A stretch of DNA of 48,665 nt from Chloroflexota bacterium (GTDB lineage Bacteria; Chloroflexota; Anaerolineae; Anaerolineales; DRMV01): contig DRMV01000052.1 of assembly GCA_011322445.1 (NCBI GenBank), forward strand, positions 1-48,665. The letters are read 5' to 3'. The notes under the pieces are model-generated. The model was not told the DNA's origin and searched no databases. It saw nothing but the letters and a program-made list of their open reading frames with translations. Position 1 is the first letter of the stretch. Each line of letters starts with the position of its first letter. This document shows positions 2,122 through 35,963 of the stretch, one piece after another. A program made the position numbers and the translations under genes.

Positions 2122-2355
2122 GAGAAAGGCTGGCCGGCTAAACGTTTCTTTCACGAGCAACTACCCAAGGTGCACGATGTGCCCACCGCGCCCGCGCCGC
2201 TGAATGGCGGTGCGGTGGTTGTGGACAACACAGAACAACGCACCACCTCGCCACAGCCGAAGAAGCCGACGACGGTCGCTGGGAAGTTCTTACCCTCGCC
2301 CCCAACGGCCAGTGGTCCAAAGATACCGGCGTGCTGACCAACGGCCTCCACACGC
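2122..2355 (+). pseudogene. Recombination scar: core-tail and Ig-like fragments in different frames
   Basis: No intact gene. From about 2188 one frame reads APAPLNGGAVVVDNTEQRTT, a near copy of the segment encoded at 2684-2748. At about 2250 the similarity stops and another frame reads EEADDGRWEVLTLAPNGQW and then TNGLHTLT, which looks like the end of an Ig/PKD-like domain. That frame meets the downstream frame (PGQYPIAITVWDSWG) at 2351-2358, where one extra C would restore continuity. I read this as the remains of a core gene spliced by recombination and then frameshifted. Confidence 0.6.
2188..2252 (+). repeat. Direct repeat DR1, left copy (APAPLNGG segment)
   Basis: About 65 bp that recurs 496 bp downstream at 2684-2748 with roughly two mismatches (gtggacaacac against gtggacgacac, cctcgcc against cctcacc). 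It encodes APAPLNGGAVVVD.TEQRTTSP. A long, near-identical direct repeat on either side of a different sequence is a substrate for homologous recombination and probably marks an old cassette exchange. Confidence 0.85.
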
Positions 2356-3805
2356 TCACCCGGGGCAGTACCCCATCGCCATCACCGTATGGGATTCGTG
2401 GGGGCGCTCGTCGGGTGTGCGCGGCGTGATCATCGTCTCTACTCCACCCACAGCCACCCCCACACCCACCCCCACGGCTACGCCTTTGCCCACGGCTACA
2501 CCCCTTGGGGGGCCGGTGGTGGTGCCCGACCTGCCCACCCCAACCCCCACGTCGCCGCCGGCGACCCCCTCGGCCACGGCCACCCCTCTGCCGCCGCTGC
2601 CGCTGAGCGGGCCGGTGATGATCCCCACGTCCATGCCCACCGCTACGCCTACGCCCTTCACCATCCTCAGCGGCCCGCCGCAAGCGCCCGCGCCGCTGAA
2701 TGGCGGTGCGGTGGTTGTGGACGACACAGAACAACGCACCACCTCACCGGCAGAGGCCCCCAATTGGGCACCTGCCCCTGTGGGGGGCGCGGCTGCCTTT
2801 CTGGCAGCCTGGGCGGCGTATGCCCGGCGCAAACGGCTGCAACATGCGATAGAAGAAGCCCGTGAACGCGCCGCACGGGCGGCCTGGCTGGCCGCCCAGC
2901 GGATGAAAGCCGCCGCGCTGATGGCCGCAGTGGCGCGCGGCTTGGCAAAGCAGAGGCAAGGCAAGAGCGAAGATGAAACCCCGCCCCGCCACCGCCGCCT
3001 CCCCCTCACCATCGACGGCGAAGCGCCCTTAGACCAAGCCGCCTCGGGCCGCACGCCCCAGCCGGGGCCGCCCAGACCCGATGGCTCTTACACCCCGCAT
3101 GGACTGCGAGACGGCTATGCTCACTCGCAATCCGTTGACCTCGCCGCGTGGAAACAGGCCGACTATGGGCAGATGGCCTTCCACGCTTGTGCTTTTCCCT
3201 CTAATCCTGCGCAAGCCACAACATGGTTGCTCTACCGTATGAACCACAACTGCGAATCTGTAGTGACGCAACTCAAGGTCTCCAACGCTTTGGCGTCAGA
3301 CTTAGCCAAAATGTCGTATCTTGGCCTTGGGCCATTGGCAGCATCTCTCGCGGTTAACCTCTTTGAAGGGAATCTTCTCCGGTGGTTTCAGTTGGTAAAA
3401 GGTGGGGCGCCTTTGGATTTCAAAGGCCCTGAGTTGGAAGTGTGGAAATGGAAAGACAACCCGGACCGCCACATCCTTTACATAGCCAATGTCCCTCTCC
3501 GTTGGGATGACTTGGCCAATCTCTATTATGGCTACGCTGGACGCAAAGGGGGATTCCCTCGGCTGGTCTTGGAGGCAGGAGCAGGGTTATACAATGGATG
3601 GCAATACTACCAAAGACACAAAACATGGCCTTGGTTCTGGTGGAGAACTTGGTTCGATGACCCAAGGGACAATAGGGCTATACGGGCAGGTATGGATGTG
3701 TATGAGATGGCTCAAGAAAACGGCACCCCCGTTGATGTACTTATGCTTCAAAAAATCCTGCAGGGTTATTCCCTTCAGTACAACCCAAAAGAGGAGTCAA
3801 AATGA
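2204..3805 (+). CDS. Core-tail plus Ntox44-like polymorphic toxin tip (5' end broken)
   Basis: The open frame encodes 533 residues, but the first 50 are out of frame relative to the homologous upstream sequence, so the real gene is a 5'-truncated core tail. Order: end of an Ig-like domain (about 54-80), Pro/Thr linker (80-160), APAPLNGG segment (161-180), one membrane helix (about 189-206) ending in ARRKR, Ala/Arg coiled coil (210-250), junction (266-300), variable tip (325-533). Residues 436-501 carry DLANLYYGYAGRKGG, then LVLEAGAGL, then FDDPRDNRAIRAG. That pattern resembles polymorphic toxin type 44 (Ntox44), a predicted RNase. The next gene starts within the stop codon (ATGA). The Ntox44 match is from memory of its motifs. 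Confidence 0.6.
   Translation: MAVRWLWTTQNNAPPRHSRRSRRRSLGSSYPRPQRPVVQRYRRADQRPPHAHPGQYPIAITVWDSWGRSSGVRGVIIVSTPPTATPTPTPTATPLPTATPLGGPVVVPDLPTPTPTSPPATPSATATPLPPLPLSGPVMIPTSMPTATPTPFTILSGPPQAPAPLNGGAVVVDDTEQRTTSPAEAPNWAPAPVGGAAAFLAAWAAYARRKRLQHAIEEARERAARAAWLAAQRMKAAALMAAVARGLAKQRQGKSEDETPPRHRRLPLTIDGEAPLDQAASGRTPQPGPPRPDGSYTPHGLRDGYAHSQSVDLAAWKQADYGQMAFHACAFPSNPAQATTWLLYRMNHNCESVVTQLKVSNALASDLAKMSYLGLGPLAASLAVNLFEGNLLRWFQLVKGGAPLDFKGPELEVWKWKDNPDRHILYIANVPLRWDDLANLYYGYAGRKGGFPRLVLEAGAGLYNGWQYYQRHKTWPWFWWRTWFDDPRDNRAIRAGMDVYEMAQENGTPVDVLMLQKILQGYSLQYNPKEESK
2684..2748 (+). repeat. Direct repeat DR1, right copy
   Basis: Right-hand copy of the 65-bp repeat described at 2188-2252. Here it lies in frame between the Pro/Thr linker and the membrane helix of the core tail, which is presumably the original arrangement. 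Confidence 0.85.
2993..3176 (+). repeat. Toxin junction repeat, copy B
   Basis: Second copy of the junction, the most complete. It reads RRLPLTIDGEAPLDQAASG, continues through RTPQPGPPRPDGS and then TPHGLRDGYAHSQ and WKQADYGQM. Homology to copy C (7150-7328) runs to the DYGQM codons and then ends abruptly, which marks the start of the exchangeable tip. Copy A shares only the first part. Confidence 0.85.
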
Positions 3806-14236: not shown

Positions 14237-17200
14237 TTAGGAAGGGATGAGGTTGATCACCGACACGGTTGCCAGCTGGCGGCGGATGCGGAAATCGCCG
14301 GGGGCGAGCTGGGCGGCTTTGCGGAACATGTCTTCCGCGTTTTCGTAGTCGCGGACGGCTTTGTAGATCATGCCGGCGTAGTAATAAGGGCGGCTGTCTT
14401 GTGGGTCGAGACGCTGGGCGGCCTCTAAGGTTTGCAGGGCAGCAGCGTATTCGCGGCGGTCGCTTTGCACTTGCGCCAGTTTGAGCAACGCTTCTATGTG
14501 CTTGGGCGCCAGCCGGACGGCTTCGCTGAAATGATAGAGTGCCTGGTCCAATTGCCCTGCCTCTTTGGCAAGGTTGCCCAACAGCATGTGCAGCCGGACG
14601 CGGCTTTCGGGGGGCAGGGTGTCCATGCCACGCAGGGCTTTGCGACCGGCTGCCCGGGCGGCATCCAACTGGCGGCTGGCAGCCAGGGCTTCGGCCAGCC
14701 CCAGCCACAGGGTGGGCACATTGGGGCGGGAAGCCAGCAGCCCGCGCCAGATTTCCACTGCTGCCTTGGGGCCGCCGATCTGGCGGTGCAGTTCGGCGCG
14801 CAGGATGTTGAGTTCCATATCGTCGGGCGCGTGCGGTAGCGTTTCTTCGAGAAGGCGCAGGGCTTCCTCGGCTTCGCCCAATGCCAGCAGGGCATTGACG
14901 GCGTAGCGCGTGGCTTCGGGGTCGAAGGGGTGGCTTTGCAGCCAGCGGCGGGCGTGCTGGAGGGCGATTTCGGGGGCTTGCTGAGCCAGCGCGATCTGAA
15001 TGCGGAGCATCACCGGTTCGGCGGCGTGGCGCTCGGCGCGGGCGGCGGTTTCGGCGTGCTGGGCAGCCTCGTCCAGCCGACCCAGCCGGAAGAGCACCTG
15101 GGCCAGCAGTAAATGCGGCCGCGCGTGTTCGGGGTGGTGGCGCAAGGCCGTGGTCAGCGCGCTGTGGGCGGCTTCCAGGTCGCCACGTGCCATTTCGGCC
15201 TCGGCCAACGCCAGGTGGTGGGACAGGTGCTGCGGTTCCAGGCGGACGGCTTCTTGCAGGTGATGGAGGGCTTGTTCCTCGTGGCGCAGGTCGGTGTGGA
15301 TGGCGGCAGCCAGGGCGTGCCAGCAGGGTTCATCGGGCGCGAGGCGCAGTGCGGCGGTGATGGCCTCTTCCGCAGTGGGCAGATCGCTCAGGCGGTTGGC
15401 AAGGCGGGCGACCAAAAAATGGGCTGCAGCCCATTGGGGGCGCTGGTCGCGCGCGTGTTGGGCGGCTTGCAGCGCGATTTGCAGGTCGCCGGTGGGCAGG
15501 CTTTCCAGCAGCAAGGCGTGGTGAAATTGCACCATCGGGTCGTTCTGGAAAGCCGGAAGCGCGTTTTGCATGGGCATGCCGCGGCGACGCAGGGCGTCTA
15601 ACCCCGCGGCGAGGTCGCTGGGGGCGGGTGGCGTTTGCAAGAGCAGCACGTTCAATCGCCCCTGGAACGCGGCCATGCCGCGCGCATACCAGCGGTGCAG
15701 CGCCGGGTGTTGGTGGTAGCCTTCGGGGGTAGCCTCGGCACCCAACCGCTGGGCTGCGGTTTCGAGGGCGGTTTGCCATGCCTCTTGTGCCGTGGCGCCC
15801 AAGACCTGGGCGTCGGGCAGGGCGGCCACGGCCTCGACCGCCCGGCAGCGGTGGTAACTCTCGGCTTGCAGCGTGAGCAAGCGTGCTTTGCGCAGCGCGG
15901 CTGCCGGGCTGTGGGGGCAGGCCTCGGTGACATGGTCGGTGAAAAGGTGGGCAATGTGCCAGCGCCGCAGTTCGGCCGCGGCATCGGCAATGGCTGCCCA
16001 GGCCGTCAACGTTGCCGTGGGCGGCAGGGCTTCGCCGGTAGGGGCGGGAGCGTGCTCGACGGCAGCATCCAGCAAGTGTTGCCCTTCGGCGAGATCGACG
16101 CGCCGGGCTGTGAGGCGCGCCTGGAGCGCCAGCAGGTGCGGTGATTCGGGCGCGTATTCCAGCCCTTGGGCGATGGCTTCGGCTGCTGCCACTTCGGCCC
16201 CCTGATCTAAGGCGGCTTCGGCCTGCGCTGCCAGCCACTCGGCCAGGTGCTCGGCGGTGGCAACGGTGGGAGAGGCTTGTAACAGGTGCTGAGCGCGCTC
16301 GGCTTGTAACAGCACCCGGGCCAGCGCGAGGGCTTCCAGCCGCAGGGGCAGATCTTCGGGGTGCAGCACCAGGGCTTCTTCGGCGGCTTGCAGGGCTTTG
16401 GGCAGGTTGCCGATGGCGCGCCATAGCCCTACGGCGGCTTTCAGCAGCGAGAATGCCCGTGGATAGGCTTCCAGCGCGCGGCTCAGGGCCTGGGCTGCAC
16501 GCTGAGGGCGCCCTTGGGCCAGATCATTTTGTACAATGGCGAGATGAAGCGCGATGCGGGCTTCTGTTTCGCCTTCGTCGGCTTCGGGGGCGTGCTGGCC
16601 TTCGGTTTGCTTAAGGGCGTGCAGCGCGGCCTGGGTGGCGGCTTCAAAGGCATCTTGATCTTGCAGCGCGCGCACGAGCGCCAGATGCCACTGGGCGGGA
16701 GCGTCTTTGTCGTGGGTGGCGCGTTGCAGGCAGCGCACCGCGGCTTCGGTTTGCCCCAGCGCCAGCAGTTGCGTGCCTGCTTCGGCACACCATGCTGGTG
16801 TGGTGTGGTCGAGGTCTTGCAAAAAGGGCTGAAGTGCGGATATGGCTTCCTGGGCTTGTCCCAGGGCATGGTGAATTTTCGCCAGTAGCAGGGCAATTTC
16901 GGGGTTATGAGGTTGGAGGGCAGTGTTGCTTTCGAGGACGTCGGCGGCGCGAGGGGCTTCCCCGAGGTCTAACAGCAGGCGAGCGTACCAGTGGGCGATT
17001 TCCGGGTCGTGGCGGCTGAGCCGCAGGGCGTCGGAACCGGCGTCGATAGCCTGATCGCGGAAATTCAGTTGGCGGTAGGCTTCGGCCTGCAGTTGCCGCA
17101 GGCGGGGGGTGGGGCCGTGTTGGAGGGCGTCTTCTATGGCCGCCAGGCCGATTTCTGCCCGCCGAAGCCGCAGCGCCGTTTCTGCCAACCCAATGGCGAT

Positions 17201-19399
17201 AGCCCGTTGCCGATGGGGATGCTCGCCGGGCAGCGCCTGCAAGGCCTGGCGGTAGGCTTCCAGTGCTTCGTCAAGATTTTGTTGCTGGCGATGTGCCTGG
17301 GCGAGGGCTGTCAGGATGTCGGCGCGTAACAGCGCGTCTTCGGGTACGGTGGTTTCCTGGGGCAGGCGGCTAAGCGCGAGTTGCAAGGCGTGGGCAGCGC
17401 GCTCGGGGTCGGTTTGTGCGGCCAGGAGGGCCTGGGCGTAGAGGTAAAGGTCGTGCGGCGTGGCATCGGGCTGCTGCGAAAAGGGCGCCAGCAGGGCCGC
17501 GGCGGCGTGCGGGTCGTCGGCGGCCAGATGTGCCTGGGCCAGCAAGCGCGCGGTTTTGGGCGTGGGCGTGTCGCGGTGGTAGCGGTGCAACAGGTCGCGG
17601 GCCGCGGTGGGTTCACCAAGCGCCAGGTAGGTGGCGGCTAAGGTGGCGGCAATGTCGGCGCGTTGAGGGGCCAGATGATGGGCGGTTTCCAGGACGGTGC
17701 GGGCGTGGCCGGGGCGGTTTTGGGACAGCAGGTATTGCCCCAGGCGGTAATGAATTTCGGCGTCGTGAGGGAGGGCGTGGGTGGCCGTTTGGAGCACGTC
17801 CAGTACGGCGGCTTCTCCCTCGGTTTGGGCTACCACGTCAGCCAGCGCGAGGTAGGGACTGGCGTCGGTGGGGTGGTGAGCAATGGCCTCTTCCAGGTGG
17901 CGGCGGGCGGCCTCGAGATGGCCTTCTTGGGCCAGCACTTTCCCCACAATGGTCAGCGCCTGAGGGTGTTCGGGCGCGTGTTCCAGCACAGTTTCGGCAG
18001 CGCGACGGGCTTCTTCGGGCTGGTCGGCGCGCAGGGCGAGGCTGGCCAGCGCAAGGTGGTCTTCAGGGGTGGCTTCGGGGTCTTCGGCCAGCAGGCGGTG
18101 GTTTTGGAGGGCTTCGTGAAGCAGGCCGGCGGCTTCCTGTGCTTCGGCCAGGCGGCGAAGGCGGGCTGTGGTGGGGGCAAGCCGATGGGCGAGGAAGGCC
18201 GCTTCGGCGGCTTCGGCCGGGTGCTGCGCTTGAAGGGCGGTCTCGGCAGCAAGGTCGAGCGCCTGCACGTCGGCGGGATGGGCGGCAGCCAGGCGCAAGG
18301 CGGCCCGCGCGGCGGCCGCGGATTCTCCCAGAGCCGTTAAGGTTTCGGCCAGGGTGTGCAGCAGGTCGGCGGGCAGGTCGCTGAGGTGGGCCAGAGCCTC
18401 TAAGGCATAGGCGCGGGCGGTTTCGGGGTGACTGTTTTGCAGCAGGTGCGCGGCGGCGACCTGCAAGGCCGGGTGGTGCGGCGTTTCGGGAAGCAGCGCA
18501 CGGGCTTCGTCGGTGTGGCGGGCACGGTGGCGTGCAAGGGCACGGCGCGCCAGCACCTCGGGGTGGGAAGGCAGGTGAGTTGCGGCCTGTTCCCACGCTG
18601 TGAGCGCTGTGGGTAAATCGCCCTGGGAGGCAGCCAGTTGAGCCTGATGGGTGGCTAACAGGCCGCTGAGGCGGCGCAGGTTTTCCCATGCGTCGGCGAG
18701 GGCGGCTTGTGCCTCGTCTGGCTGGCCTGTGGCGGCGGCGTGAAGGGCGCGCTGCCATCCGTCGTAAGGGGCTGGAAGGGGCTGAGTGGTGATTTGCGCG
18801 GCTACGGCGCGGGCCAGTGCGGGACGGCAGCGTTGGAGATCCCAGGCCGTGGACAGGCGGGGTTCGGGCGGGAGCCGCCGCAGGAATTCAGCCAGGCGCA
18901 CGGCTTGAATTTCCGGTGGCGTAGGCTGGCACAGCAAGGCGTGCAGCGCCAGGGCAGGGCCGTGAGGCAAAGCAGCGATGGCTTCGAGCAACGCGGGGGC
19001 GTCGTCGGCCCACGAAAGCGCACAGGCCAGCGGCGTGCGCCAGGCCGTGGACGGGCCTTCCAGAAATTCGGCCAGGCCTTTCCAACTGCCATTATCCTTG
19101 CGGAAGGCCTGCAGCGTCAGCGCCAGGCGGGCGGCGTCGGCCAGGGTCCTCGGCGGCAGGGGAGGGTTTTCGGAGGGGGTGTTCTCTTGTTGGGGAGCGT
19201 GTTCCAGCGCCAACCGCGCCAGGGCGCCTGGATGCCAGGCGGTAGGCGTGGCTCCCAGGCTTTCCAACGCGTGTTCCCCCACGCCGCTGTGGAGCGCTTC
19301 CCACACTAAGGGGTCGTGCATCAAGGCGGCGACGACCCAGGGGAAGGCATCGGGCGGCAGTTGTTGTTGGAGGGTGAAAAGAAAGGGCTTGGTTGGCAT
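14237..19399 (-). CDS. Giant tetratricopeptide-repeat protein
   Basis: A 1720-residue protein made almost wholly of TPR-type helical pairs from about residue 220 to the end. Repeats with the consensus A.LYxLGxxxxxxG..eeAl..l..al.l.P recur many times, for example YYYAGMIYKAVRDYENAEDM near the C-terminus. The N-terminal about 200 residues are helical but less regular. No signal peptide or membrane helix. It begins 33 nt after the 2-TM gene and ends 71 nt before the protease gene, so the three are probably co-transcribed. The likely role is a scaffold or sensor that binds peptides or regulates the protease. Length is far above usual TPR proteins. Confidence 0.85.
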   Translation of the reverse strand: MPTKPFLFTLQQQLPPDAFPWVVAALMHDPLVWEALHSGVGEHALESLGATPTAWHPGALARLALEHAPQQENTPSENPPLPPRTLADAARLALTLQAFRKDNGSWKGLAEFLEGPSTAWRTPLACALSWADDAPALLEAIAALPHGPALALHALLCQPTPPEIQAVRLAEFLRRLPPEPRLSTAWDLQRCRPALARAVAAQITTQPLPAPYDGWQRALHAAATGQPDEAQAALADAWENLRRLSGLLATHQAQLAASQGDLPTALTAWEQAATHLPSHPEVLARRALARHRARHTDEARALLPETPHHPALQVAAAHLLQNSHPETARAYALEALAHLSDLPADLLHTLAETLTALGESAAAARAALRLAAAHPADVQALDLAAETALQAQHPAEAAEAAFLAHRLAPTTARLRRLAEAQEAAGLLHEALQNHRLLAEDPEATPEDHLALASLALRADQPEEARRAAETVLEHAPEHPQALTIVGKVLAQEGHLEAARRHLEEAIAHHPTDASPYLALADVVAQTEGEAAVLDVLQTATHALPHDAEIHYRLGQYLLSQNRPGHARTVLETAHHLAPQRADIAATLAATYLALGEPTAARDLLHRYHRDTPTPKTARLLAQAHLAADDPHAAAALLAPFSQQPDATPHDLYLYAQALLAAQTDPERAAHALQLALSRLPQETTVPEDALLRADILTALAQAHRQQQNLDEALEAYRQALQALPGEHPHRQRAIAIGLAETALRLRRAEIGLAAIEDALQHGPTPRLRQLQAEAYRQLNFRDQAIDAGSDALRLSRHDPEIAHWYARLLLDLGEAPRAADVLESNTALQPHNPEIALLLAKIHHALGQAQEAISALQPFLQDLDHTTPAWCAEAGTQLLALGQTEAAVRCLQRATHDKDAPAQWHLALVRALQDQDAFEAATQAALHALKQTEGQHAPEADEGETEARIALHLAIVQNDLAQGRPQRAAQALSRALEAYPRAFSLLKAAVGLWRAIGNLPKALQAAEEALVLHPEDLPLRLEALALARVLLQAERAQHLLQASPTVATAEHLAEWLAAQAEAALDQGAEVAAAEAIAQGLEYAPESPHLLALQARLTARRVDLAEGQHLLDAAVEHAPAPTGEALPPTATLTAWAAIADAAAELRRWHIAHLFTDHVTEACPHSPAAALRKARLLTLQAESYHRCRAVEAVAALPDAQVLGATAQEAWQTALETAAQRLGAEATPEGYHQHPALHRWYARGMAAFQGRLNVLLLQTPPAPSDLAAGLDALRRRGMPMQNALPAFQNDPMVQFHHALLLESLPTGDLQIALQAAQHARDQRPQWAAAHFLVARLANRLSDLPTAEEAITAALRLAPDEPCWHALAAAIHTDLRHEEQALHHLQEAVRLEPQHLSHHLALAEAEMARGDLEAAHSALTTALRHHPEHARPHLLLAQVLFRLGRLDEAAQHAETAARAERHAAEPVMLRIQIALAQQAPEIALQHARRWLQSHPFDPEATRYAVNALLALGEAEEALRLLEETLPHAPDDMELNILRAELHRQIGGPKAAVEIWRGLLASRPNVPTLWLGLAEALAASRQLDAARAAGRKALRGMDTLPPESRVRLHMLLGNLAKEAGQLDQALYHFSEAVRLAPKHIEALLKLAQVQSDRREYAAALQTLEAAQRLDPQDSRPYYYAGMIYKAVRDYENAEDMFRKAAQLAPGDFRIRRQLATVSVINLIPS

Positions 19400-33797: not shown

Positions 33798-33825
33798 TTT
33801 ACAAATATGGCGAAAAGGGTATAAT
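33798..33825 (+). promoter_or_regulatory. Promoter of the cytochrome operon
   Basis: TTTACA (33798-33803), 16-bp spacer, TATAAT (33820-33825), about 50 nt before the first ATG. The AGGAGG ribosome site lies just before that ATG. Confidence 0.75.
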
Positions 33826-33873
33826 TAAAGTGGCATTAAAAACCCCGCTGAGCACTTCTCGGAAGGAGGTGAA

Positions 33874-34407
33874 ATGAAGGTTAGCGGCAAAAAGATTCTT
33901 TACGTCATTGGCGGCTTGCTCGCTGTGTCAGTGCTTGCCGCAGTTGCATGGATGGTCGTCGATACGGGAATTGAGGCGACCGCCCACGCAGCGTTTTGCG
34001 GCACCTGTCATGTAATGCAGCCCATGGTGGCAGCATATCATGACTCAGTACACGGCGGCAACAATCCCTACGGCGTCGCAGCCCAATGCTCCGACTGCCA
34101 CGTCAACCACTCCAACGCTTTTGCCTACCTGGTCTCCAAAAGTGAATCAGGAATCCACGACACCTGGATCGCTTTGGTGATGGACGAGTTTACCCTCGAT
34201 TGGCAAGCCAATCGAGAACGACGGGCAGAATACGTTTACGATTCTGGTTGTCTGCAATGCCACACCAACCTGCAATCCATTGCGGCGGGCCACGACGCTC
34301 ATGCCAAATACTTCGATGGGCTCATCGATGCCAAGTGTGTGGATTGCCACCCAGGCGTAGGCCACGAAAACCTCAACAAATACCTCTTGATCAGTAAATA
34401 CCGTTAG
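33874..34407 (+). CDS. NapC/NrfH-type tetraheme cytochrome c
   Basis: A 177-residue membrane-anchored quinol oxidase. One N-terminal helix (ILYVIGGLLAVSVLAAVAWM) and four heme motifs: CGTCH (42-46), CSDCH (72-76), CLQCH (126-130), CVDCH (155-159). The first lies in FCGTCHVMQPM, the NrfH signature. It takes electrons from the quinone pool and would pass them to the octaheme protein encoded next. Confidence 0.9.
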   Translation: MKVSGKKILYVIGGLLAVSVLAAVAWMVVDTGIEATAHAAFCGTCHVMQPMVAAYHDSVHGGNNPYGVAAQCSDCHVNHSNAFAYLVSKSESGIHDTWIALVMDEFTLDWQANRERRAEYVYDSGCLQCHTNLQSIAAGHDAHAKYFDGLIDAKCVDCHPGVGHENLNKYLLISKYR

Positions 34408-34459
34408 CCGCTGCTTTTCGCAATGCTCAGACCCGACCAAAACCTAACAAGGAGGTTCT

Positions 34460-35812
34460 ATGCATAGCAAGCGCAAACTTTTTGTGGTTTCCCTGTTCGT
34501 GCTGGGGTTGCTGATCCTCGGTGCGGGCGTATTGAGCGCCTGCAGTGCCAAGGCGCCGAAGGCAGCCCAACCCACTGTGAGCGTGAGTGCAGCTCCCAAC
34601 GCCCAAGGTGTCACGGAAGAGGCCAAAGCGTGCATCGACTGCCACGCCAAGGAAACCCCCGGCATTGTGAGCGATTGGGACCACAGCGCTCACGCCCAAA
34701 AAGGCGTCACCTGCCTGGACTGCCACGAAACCACACCGGATTCCCCGATGCTGCTCAAAGACATCAAGGGGCATGAAGATGTGAAGGAATCCCTTTCCAT
34801 GCTTGTGCCGCCTTCGACCTGCGCCAAATGCCACCCCGATGAAGTCAAAGAATTTGATGCCAGCGGCCATCATCGGGCTGCTTTGCAGGTGGAAGACAAA
34901 GAATCCATGCAAACTTTGATTCACCACCACGAAGGGCGCGACATCGAAGGGCTGAGCGGGGCCTCTGAAGAGACCGGTTGTATGCAATGCCACGGGAAAC
35001 GCATCAAACTGGATGAGCACGGCGTTCCCACGGCAGACACCTACCCCACTTCGGGCATCGGCAACATCTACCCCAACGGCGAGGTCGGCAACTGCACAGT
35101 GTGCCATACCCGCCACAAGTTCAGCATCGAGGAAGCCCGCAAACCGGAAGCCTGCGCCTCGTGCCACCTGGGGCCAGACCATCCCGATATCGAAATCTAC
35201 GAAAACACCAAACACGGGCAAATCTACGCCACCGAGGGCGAAACCTGGAAATGGGATAGCCCGCCTGGCGACTGGGAACCTGGTGACTACCGGGCCCCCA
35301 CCTGCGCCACCTGCCACATGAGCGGCATCGGCGACCTCAAACCGACGCACAACGTCTCTGAGCGCCTGTACTGGAACGCGTGGGCCAAAGAATCTCAACC
35401 GCGCAATTCAGATGATCCCATGTCCGCGCTCACCGGCCATGCTGAACAGGGCCGTGCAGAGATGAAGCAAGTCTGCGCACAATGCCATACCAGCGCCATG
35501 ATCGACGACTACTTTGCCAGCGCCGACAAAGCCGTCAAGCTCTACAACGAAGGCTACTACGCGCCGGCGAAGAAGATGCTGGACGATCTCCAGGCCAAAG
35601 GCTTGCTGAAAGACAACCCGTGGGCCGACGAGTTCCAGATCCTCTACTATCACCTCTGGCACCACGAAGGCCGGCGCGCTCGCCAGGGCGCCTTGATGGG
35701 CGGCCCCGACTGGGCCCACTGGCATGGTTTCTTCATCCTGCAACAGGATCTCTACAAGATGCAGGATATCTACAACTACCGCATCGAAACCGGTGAAATC
35801 GAGAAGCCGTAA
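34460..35812 (+). CDS. Octaheme HAO-like cytochrome c lipoprotein
   Basis: A 450-residue protein with a lipobox (LSAC, Cys28) and eight CxxCH motifs starting at residues 58, 85, 121, 174, 212, 232, 282 and 339. The segments RHKFSIEEARKPEACASCH, GPDHPDIEIYENTKHG and GGPDWAHWHGFFILQQDLY are typical of hydroxylamine oxidoreductase relatives. Paired with an NrfH-type partner it most likely works in the reductive direction (nitrite or hydroxylamine reduction), as proposed for epsilon-HAO. Whether the Tyr cross-link of true HAO is present cannot be judged. Anchoring as a lipoprotein suits a single-membrane cell. Confidence 0.87.
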   Translation: MHSKRKLFVVSLFVLGLLILGAGVLSACSAKAPKAAQPTVSVSAAPNAQGVTEEAKACIDCHAKETPGIVSDWDHSAHAQKGVTCLDCHETTPDSPMLLKDIKGHEDVKESLSMLVPPSTCAKCHPDEVKEFDASGHHRAALQVEDKESMQTLIHHHEGRDIEGLSGASEETGCMQCHGKRIKLDEHGVPTADTYPTSGIGNIYPNGEVGNCTVCHTRHKFSIEEARKPEACASCHLGPDHPDIEIYENTKHGQIYATEGETWKWDSPPGDWEPGDYRAPTCATCHMSGIGDLKPTHNVSERLYWNAWAKESQPRNSDDPMSALTGHAEQGRAEMKQVCAQCHTSAMIDDYFASADKAVKLYNEGYYAPAKKMLDDLQAKGLLKDNPWADEFQILYYHLWHHEGRRARQGALMGGPDWAHWHGFFILQQDLYKMQDIYNYRIETGEIEKP

Positions 35813-35839: not shown

Positions 35840-35874
35840 ATCACCCCCCAGGCAGCAACGCTCTGGGGGGTGAT
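35840..35874 (+). terminator. Terminator of the cytochrome operon
   Basis: Stem atcacccccca / tggggggtgat with a 13-nt loop, followed by attttg. Confidence 0.85.
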
Positions 35875-35963
35875 ATTTTGGGCTTTCGTGAGTTGAGGGA
35901 CTTCCAATAGCCCACCCTCACAACTATACATGGGGCCATAACGCAAAACATCGAGTAAAATAT

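Follow-up and report, generated by a model that had tools for sequence, protein, structure and literature searches.

A predicted lipoprotein octaheme cytochrome of the epsilon-Hao family and its NrfH-type partner in an Anaerolineae genome

Two adjacent genes for multiheme cytochromes c lie in the stretch of DNA analysed here (the window, 48,665 nucleotides), which forms contig C52 of a genome assembly with 53 contigs, a total of 2.63 Mb and a completeness of 96%. Close named relatives, among the best 80 of 578, come from MAGs assigned to Anaerolineae/Anaerolineales in the Chloroflexota. The question raised by the locus is what the pair does: whether the octaheme protein reduces nitrogen compounds with electrons drawn from quinol, as the first-pass annotation had proposed, and whether it is tied to the membrane by a lipid of its own.

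The two-gene unit and its tetraheme protein

The two reading frames, whose positions are those of the first-pass annotation, are separated by 52 bases from stop to start and form one compact unit with the following features:

33798..33825, + strand: promoter-like site TTTACA-16-TATAAT, 11/12 consensus bases
33863..33869, + strand: ribosome-binding site AAGGAGG of the NrfH-type gene, read from the sequence
33874..34407, + strand: NapC/NrfH-type tetraheme quinol dehydrogenase (HaoC-like), P0001; by PF03264, match to NrfH 2j7a and motifs
34450..34455, + strand: ribosome-binding site AGGAGG directly 5' of the start codon of the octaheme gene, read from the sequence
34460..35812, + strand: epsilon-Hao-type octaheme cytochrome c (HaoA), predicted lipoprotein, P0002; by PF13447, tree, Met413/Trp421 and model
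34460..34543, + strand: predicted lipoprotein signal peptide with lipobox LSAC (Cys28); by sequence and rule-based scan
34979..34993, + strand: CMQCH, fourth heme motif, residues 174-178; by alignment with NeHAO, Ruegeria HAO and IhOCC
35177..35182, + strand: Asp240-His241, counterparts of NeHAO Asp267-His268; by alignment and conservation
35696..35722, + strand: Met413 to Trp421, epsilon-Hao signature; by alignment, definition from PMC8940962 (in excerpt)
35840..35879, + strand: intrinsic-terminator-like inverted repeat (atcacccccc / ggggggtgat, 10-bp arms) with a T-rich tail, read from the sequence

Since two promoter-like sites were found in the region against 0.9 expected, the one listed is weak evidence for a promoter. 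Both ribosome-binding sites are strong. Scans with Pfam and NCBIfam identified methylmalonyl-CoA mutase, a phosphonate-binding-type protein and a small thioredoxin-like protein upstream, and a LysM protein, HemW and valyl-tRNA synthetase downstream. No nitrogen theme was seen among these neighbours, thus the two-gene unit stands alone. Elsewhere in the window, a 533-aa ORF (2204-3805, + strand) carries a C-terminal Ntox44 toxin domain (PF15607, 1.3e-09), and a 1720-aa ORF (14237-19399, - strand) consists mostly of TPR repeats.

The product of the first gene (P0001, 177 aa) has four CXXCH motifs (CGTCH, CSDCH, CLQCH and CVDCH). It matched Pfam PF03264 (Cytochrom_NNT, NapC/NirT) with an E-value of 5.7e-28 and 98.2 bits, above the cut-off of 24.1, and Desulfovibrio NrfH (2j7a) with 1.5e-07, which bears out the NrfH-type partner named in the first-pass annotation. 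Because its score against the NrfH equivalog TIGR03153 of NCBIfam (68.3 bits) is under the cut-off of 134.2, we call the protein NrfH-type, not strict NrfH; HaoC is, we assume, the name in use for such a NapC/NrfH-type partner. Heme 1 is in the CXXCHxM form (CGTCHVM) and the K-x3-G-x2-D motif is present as KSESGIHD, aligned with 2j7a; we take the first motif to ligate heme in NrfH and the second, through its Lys and Asp, to bind quinol. P0001 is the sole NapC-family protein of the genome, the other PF03264 match being partial and lying in the octaheme gene itself.

The pairing is widely conserved. An NrfH-type ORF (three to five CXXCH) lies directly upstream of the octaheme gene in 72 of 75 testable loci from the best 80 of 578 relatives, one of the 80 having a cut octaheme gene and four having no upstream room; no such ORF was found directly upstream in L053, L054 and L097. 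CXXCHxM was found in 62 and K-x3-G-x2-D in 66 of these 72 upstream partners.

Fold and family of the octaheme protein

P0002 (450 aa) contains eight CXXCH motifs (CIDCH, CLDCH, CAKCH, CMQCH, CTVCH, CASCH, CATCH and CAQCH) and matched Pfam PF13447 (Multi-haem_cyto) with 1.6e-32. Its best matches in the PDB included the octaheme cytochrome 4qo5 (2.1e-41), NeHAO (1fgj, 8e-24) and the reducing HAO-like protein of Kuenenia (6h5l), and a profile built from nine relatives gave 2.8e-68 for 4qo5 and 1.2e-38 for 1fgj. Judged from these matches, its homology to HAO-fold octaheme proteins is far beyond chance. The AlphaFold model (mean pLDDT 85.3, pTM 0.75) agrees, with Z 30.2 over 399 residues for 4qo5, about 21 to 24 for HAO-type chains, and lower values for NrfA and octaheme nitrite reductase (about 11) and for MccA (about 6). 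The eight heme motifs and the HAO signatures noted at first sight are thus real features of the protein. Asp240-His241, which aligns with Asp267-His268 of NeHAO, is invariant in 51 of 51 aligned relatives; the NeHAO residues presumably belong to the active site. In HAO, catalysis takes place at heme 4, the P460 heme (PMC8840924, in excerpt), and by alignment CMQCH 174-178 of P0002 is its counterpart.

Two other assignments were rejected. P0002 is not NrfA proper, a five-heme enzyme whose catalytic motif is CXXCK (or CXXCH), as it has eight CXXCH and no CXXCK and scored 16.7 bits against PF02335 (Cytochrom_C552), under the cut-off of 24.1. Nor does the genome contain a second octaheme copy, the other match (C8:64129, E 0.0086) overlapping the ORF of a heme-free predicted lipoprotein.

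In a maximum-likelihood tree of 96 rows, P0002 falls in a 73-row clade (branch support 99/96) together with Campylobacterota (nine rows), Desulfobacterota, Gammaproteobacteria and others. NeHAO, Ruegeria HAO and 6h5l fall outside this clade at 100/100. The tree omits duplicates (L001, L027, L028, L034), partial sequences (L019, L020, L095) and loci without a complete octaheme ORF (L002, L007, L018, L021, L022, L023, L045); IhOCC, 6h5l, L096, L097, L006 and the whole of a distant group of Chloroflexota octaheme proteins (group B) sit on long branches, with uncertain exact positions. One of the tree rows, Campylobacter concisus, is named among the carriers of reverse-HURM genes in the available part of PMC3701875. 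An epsilon-Hao from an Anaerolineae MAG (L039) is without a lipobox and branches with Gammaproteobacteria, possibly reflecting transfer or a binning error.

As described in the accessible text of PMC8940962 (citing Haase 2017), epsilon-Hao has Trp at the site of the cross-linking Tyr of nitrifier HAO, and Met eight residues before it. P0002 has Trp421 and Met413 at these positions, and the signature was present in 50 of 51 aligned rows, P0002 included; since the NeHAO row is without its C-terminus, the Tyr site was judged against Ruegeria HAO and the published description. On sequence grounds P0002 is a genuine member of the epsilon-Hao family. The protein groups with the Campylobacterota enzymes, not with unrelated multiheme proteins, and its cross-linking Tyr is replaced, so that the reductive nitrogen role suggested by the first-pass annotation holds as far as clade and Trp421 can tell.

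Predicted lipid anchor and host genome

The N-terminus of P0002 reads MHSKRKLFVVSLFVLGLLILGAGVLSAC-S, in which a hydrophobic segment precedes the lipobox LSAC. A gene for the lipoprotein signal peptidase LspA was found in the host genome (E 4.3e-31), and with a lipobox following n- and h-regions P0002 is predicted to be lipidated. The lipobox rule was our own regular expression combined with a hydropathy test, not SignalP or LipoP, applied to all possible starts of each ORF; the start codons of some relatives are uncertain. Among the best 80 of 578 relatives, 13 Chloroflexota loci have an N-terminus that can be read, and 12 of them carry the lipobox; none of 66 others does, a count that includes L095, whose N-terminus is lost, and L081 has GLAC, which lies outside the rule. 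Seven close relatives (L003 and L008-L013) also have it; three of these, L003, L009 and L011, duplicate L034, L028 and L027 of the 80-locus set. On the tree, 17 of the lipobox rows make up a single clade (97/98) and the remaining one is the distant L006 of group B, two changes overall, which points to a single gain for the Chloroflexota clade.

The envelope of Chloroflexota is still debated, gene content suggesting one membrane (PMC8871954, in excerpt), and NrfA of the monoderm Firmicutes Bacillus and Desulfitobacterium is a predicted lipoprotein according to the part of PMC3475470 at hand. In view of these two points, the anchor is rare within the epsilon-Hao family, yet the expected solution for a cell without a closed periplasm. 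The first-pass annotation was right to call lipid anchoring of the octaheme subunit unusual, the precedent being the Firmicutes NrfA. Among the open-licence papers listed for lipoprotein or Anaerolineae octaheme HAO, none reported a lipoprotein epsilon-Hao. Epsilon-Hao is a known family, and the predicted tie to the membrane by lipid is a modest new twist of the Chloroflexota lineage.

The host genome contains genes for complex I, MenA (above its cut-off), cytochrome bd and the Ccm proteins CcmF, CcmH, CcmB and a CcmC-like protein. Neither NrfA, the nitrite reductase covered by the search, nor COX1/NorB was found in it, and Nar, Nap and formate dehydrogenase were not seen, its sole PF00384 protein being NuoG. 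Hcp/prismane gave no match in this genome or in 12 other genomes of its genus and family. The genome being 96% complete, such absences can be gaps.

No nitrate reductase, Nap cluster or Hcp adjoins the pair in the window or was found in the host genome, so the genomic link to nitrogen rests on relatives. Among the representatives scanned from the best 80 of 578 relatives, a NapA-type molybdoenzyme cluster or NapG/NapH-like genes were near 8, Hcp was near the octaheme pair in 7, and Crp/Fnr-type regulators were near it in 7, four of them Chloroflexota. NapA-type, NapG/NapH-like and small tetraheme genes occur near the pair in the diderm relatives L056, L068, L074, L079, L081, L084, L094 and partly L071; the molybdoenzymes of L056 and L068 scored best as NapA, under the cut-off. 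On a plasmid of Desulfosarcina ovata, NorR and nitric oxide reductase lie beside the pair. Single-linkage clustering of neighbours had mixed NapA-type with formate-dehydrogenase-type molybdoenzymes, which separate scoring of the tested members split. In the Chloroflexota loci L032 and L038 a molybdoenzyme encoded downstream on the opposite strand scored best as formate dehydrogenase and is possibly part of an electron donor system; for this reason we claim no Nap linkage for Chloroflexota. ABC-transporter-like genes were also counted among the neighbours of relatives.

The proteins of group B are 33-37% identical to P0002 and have no NrfH-type neighbour. In six of seven loci (L117-L121 and L123, from genomes G431, G418, G429, G434, G088 and G240) a membrane protein of about 305 aa is encoded directly 3'. 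Three of the six were scanned against Pfam and three against NCBIfam with no match, and a fold search of the PDB gave no match with an E-value of 0.001 or lower. Four His are invariant across the six proteins, and eight long helices are seen in the model; the protein is possibly a cytochrome-b-like substitute for NrfH. The seventh locus (L122, G066) is without it and has a rubrerythrin-family gene alongside.

Proposed function and comparison with known systems

The reading that we consider probable, from family, partner and signature residues, is that the two genes specify an epsilon-Hao-type menaquinol:nitrite reductase, in which an NrfH-type donor and the octaheme enzyme would convert nitrite to ammonium. 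We infer the following scheme, from lipidation and the joining of the two proteins in a complex to substrate, product and role in the cell. The NrfH-type protein, with one N-terminal membrane helix and four hemes, would oxidise menaquinol on the outer side of the cytoplasmic membrane and pass the electrons to the octaheme protein, held by its own lipid on the same side. There nitrite, and also hydroxylamine and probably NO, would be reduced at the fourth heme, which the Trp in place of the cross-linking Tyr would keep reductive. The nitrite would probably be external and taken through to ammonium by the octaheme enzyme itself, the pair both draining electrons delivered by complex I and protecting the cell from nitrite and NO.

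External nitrite and direct reduction to ammonium are favoured because Hcp, NrfA and a molybdenum nitrate reductase were not found in the genome. Without Hcp, the two-step reverse-HURM route of Nautilia, in which hydroxylamine goes to Hcp, cannot run as described, which leaves two outcomes: ammonium is made directly, or hydroxylamine is released. The first is in line with the reported activity of Campylobacterota epsilon-Hao, which converts nitrite to ammonium in vitro (PMC9213671 and PMC9938260, both in excerpt, citing Haase 2017). Whether the product of epsilon-Hao is hydroxylamine or ammonium has been debated (PMC3701875).

A role mainly in detoxification, by the same chemistry, removing NO, nitrite or hydroxylamine with little contribution to growth, is a serious contender, if somewhat short of probable. 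The genome is without a nitrate reductase as a source of nitrite, NorR and nitric oxide reductase adjoin the pair in D. ovata, and NrfA has detoxifying roles in D. vulgaris (PMC12285233, in excerpt). The dedicated menaquinol-oxidising partner in 72 of the 75 loci and the Nap-type genes adjoining the pair in several relatives suit respiration, but are also compatible with detoxification; from sequence alone the two cannot be told apart. 

That the octaheme protein acts on sulfite, tetrathionate or a similar sulfur species appears improbable. MccA and OTR, which are related in fold, act on sulfur compounds. A sulfur role was also put forward, as a speculative proposal by the authors, for clade I of the HAO family in Desulfobacterota of nitrogen-poor vent sediment (PMC9213671, in excerpt). 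The epsilon-Hao signature and clade, the nitrogen genes neighbouring the pair in relatives, and model scores of Z about 23 to HAOs versus about 6 to MccA argue against it. Still less credible is an electron conduit, a surface-anchored multiheme protein passing electrons to minerals or partner cells in the manner of OcwA of thermophilic Gram-positives: the lipid anchor, a lineage that may lack an outer membrane, and structure matches to OcwA (6i5b, Z 9.4) and the S-layer undecaheme cytochrome (6qvm, Z 8.9) would suit it, but HAO-type proteins fit far better (Z about 21 to 30) and the catalytic-site residues are conserved throughout. An enzyme that oxidises hydroxylamine or hydrazine, as HAO does, was rejected as very unlikely: membership of the HAO family in Pfam and a partial NCBIfam hydrazine dehydrogenase match (76 bits against a cut-off of 900) are outweighed by Trp at the cross-linking Tyr site and the separate clade at 100/100, and no haoB adjoins the pair, whereas Ruegeria has one.

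Returning to nitrite reduction, we tentatively suggest a wider view. The Chloroflexota epsilon-Hao may have turned into a lipoprotein a single time, in adaptation to an envelope that lacks a closed periplasm. In the host of the window it may work alone, without Nap, NrfA and Hcp; of the anaerobic terminal reductases tested for, it would be the only one next to cytochrome bd, and it would take nitrite supplied by the community to ammonium in a six-electron reduction outside the cell membrane. A lineage that has epsilon-Hao and lacks Hcp and NrfA would be a natural test case for the one-enzyme route to ammonium, and the lipoprotein form would make purification with the quinol partner and prediction of the envelope straightforward. 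Anaerolineae without nrfA would join the possible makers of ammonium from nitrite, which an nrfA-based survey would overlook.

Of the known systems, the epsilon-Hao of Campylobacterota, with the reverse-HURM of Nautilia profundicola, resembles the window pair in clade, eight CXXCH, Trp/Met signature and NrfH-type partner, and quinol-driven nitrite reduction has been proposed for it in the sources available in part. It has a plain signal peptide whereas P0002 is a predicted lipoprotein, a variation and not an exclusion from the family; the reverse-HURM proposal also includes Hcp and Nap, neither of which was found in the host genome. Oxidative HAO (Nitrosomonas europaea, Ruegeria) shares the fold, the heme arrangement and the Asp-His pair with P0002 and differs in its cross-linking Tyr, clade and haoB.

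The closest solved structure, by sequence and fold, is IhOCC of Ignicoccus hospitalis (4qo5), which is not an enzyme with an established physiological role; the title of the Ignicoccus paper reportedly calls it membrane-associated. The long insert that separates heme motifs 4 and 5 in P0002 is also found in IhOCC, but IhOCC has Asp-Val in place of Asp240-His241 and lies on a very long branch outside the 73-row clade that holds P0002. NrfA is a pentaheme protein with CXXCK, unlike P0002 with its eight CXXCH, yet the NrfHA of the monoderm Firmicutes, in which an NrfH-type protein partners a nitrite reductase that is a predicted lipoprotein (PMC3475470, in excerpt), presents the same anchoring solution as the window pair.
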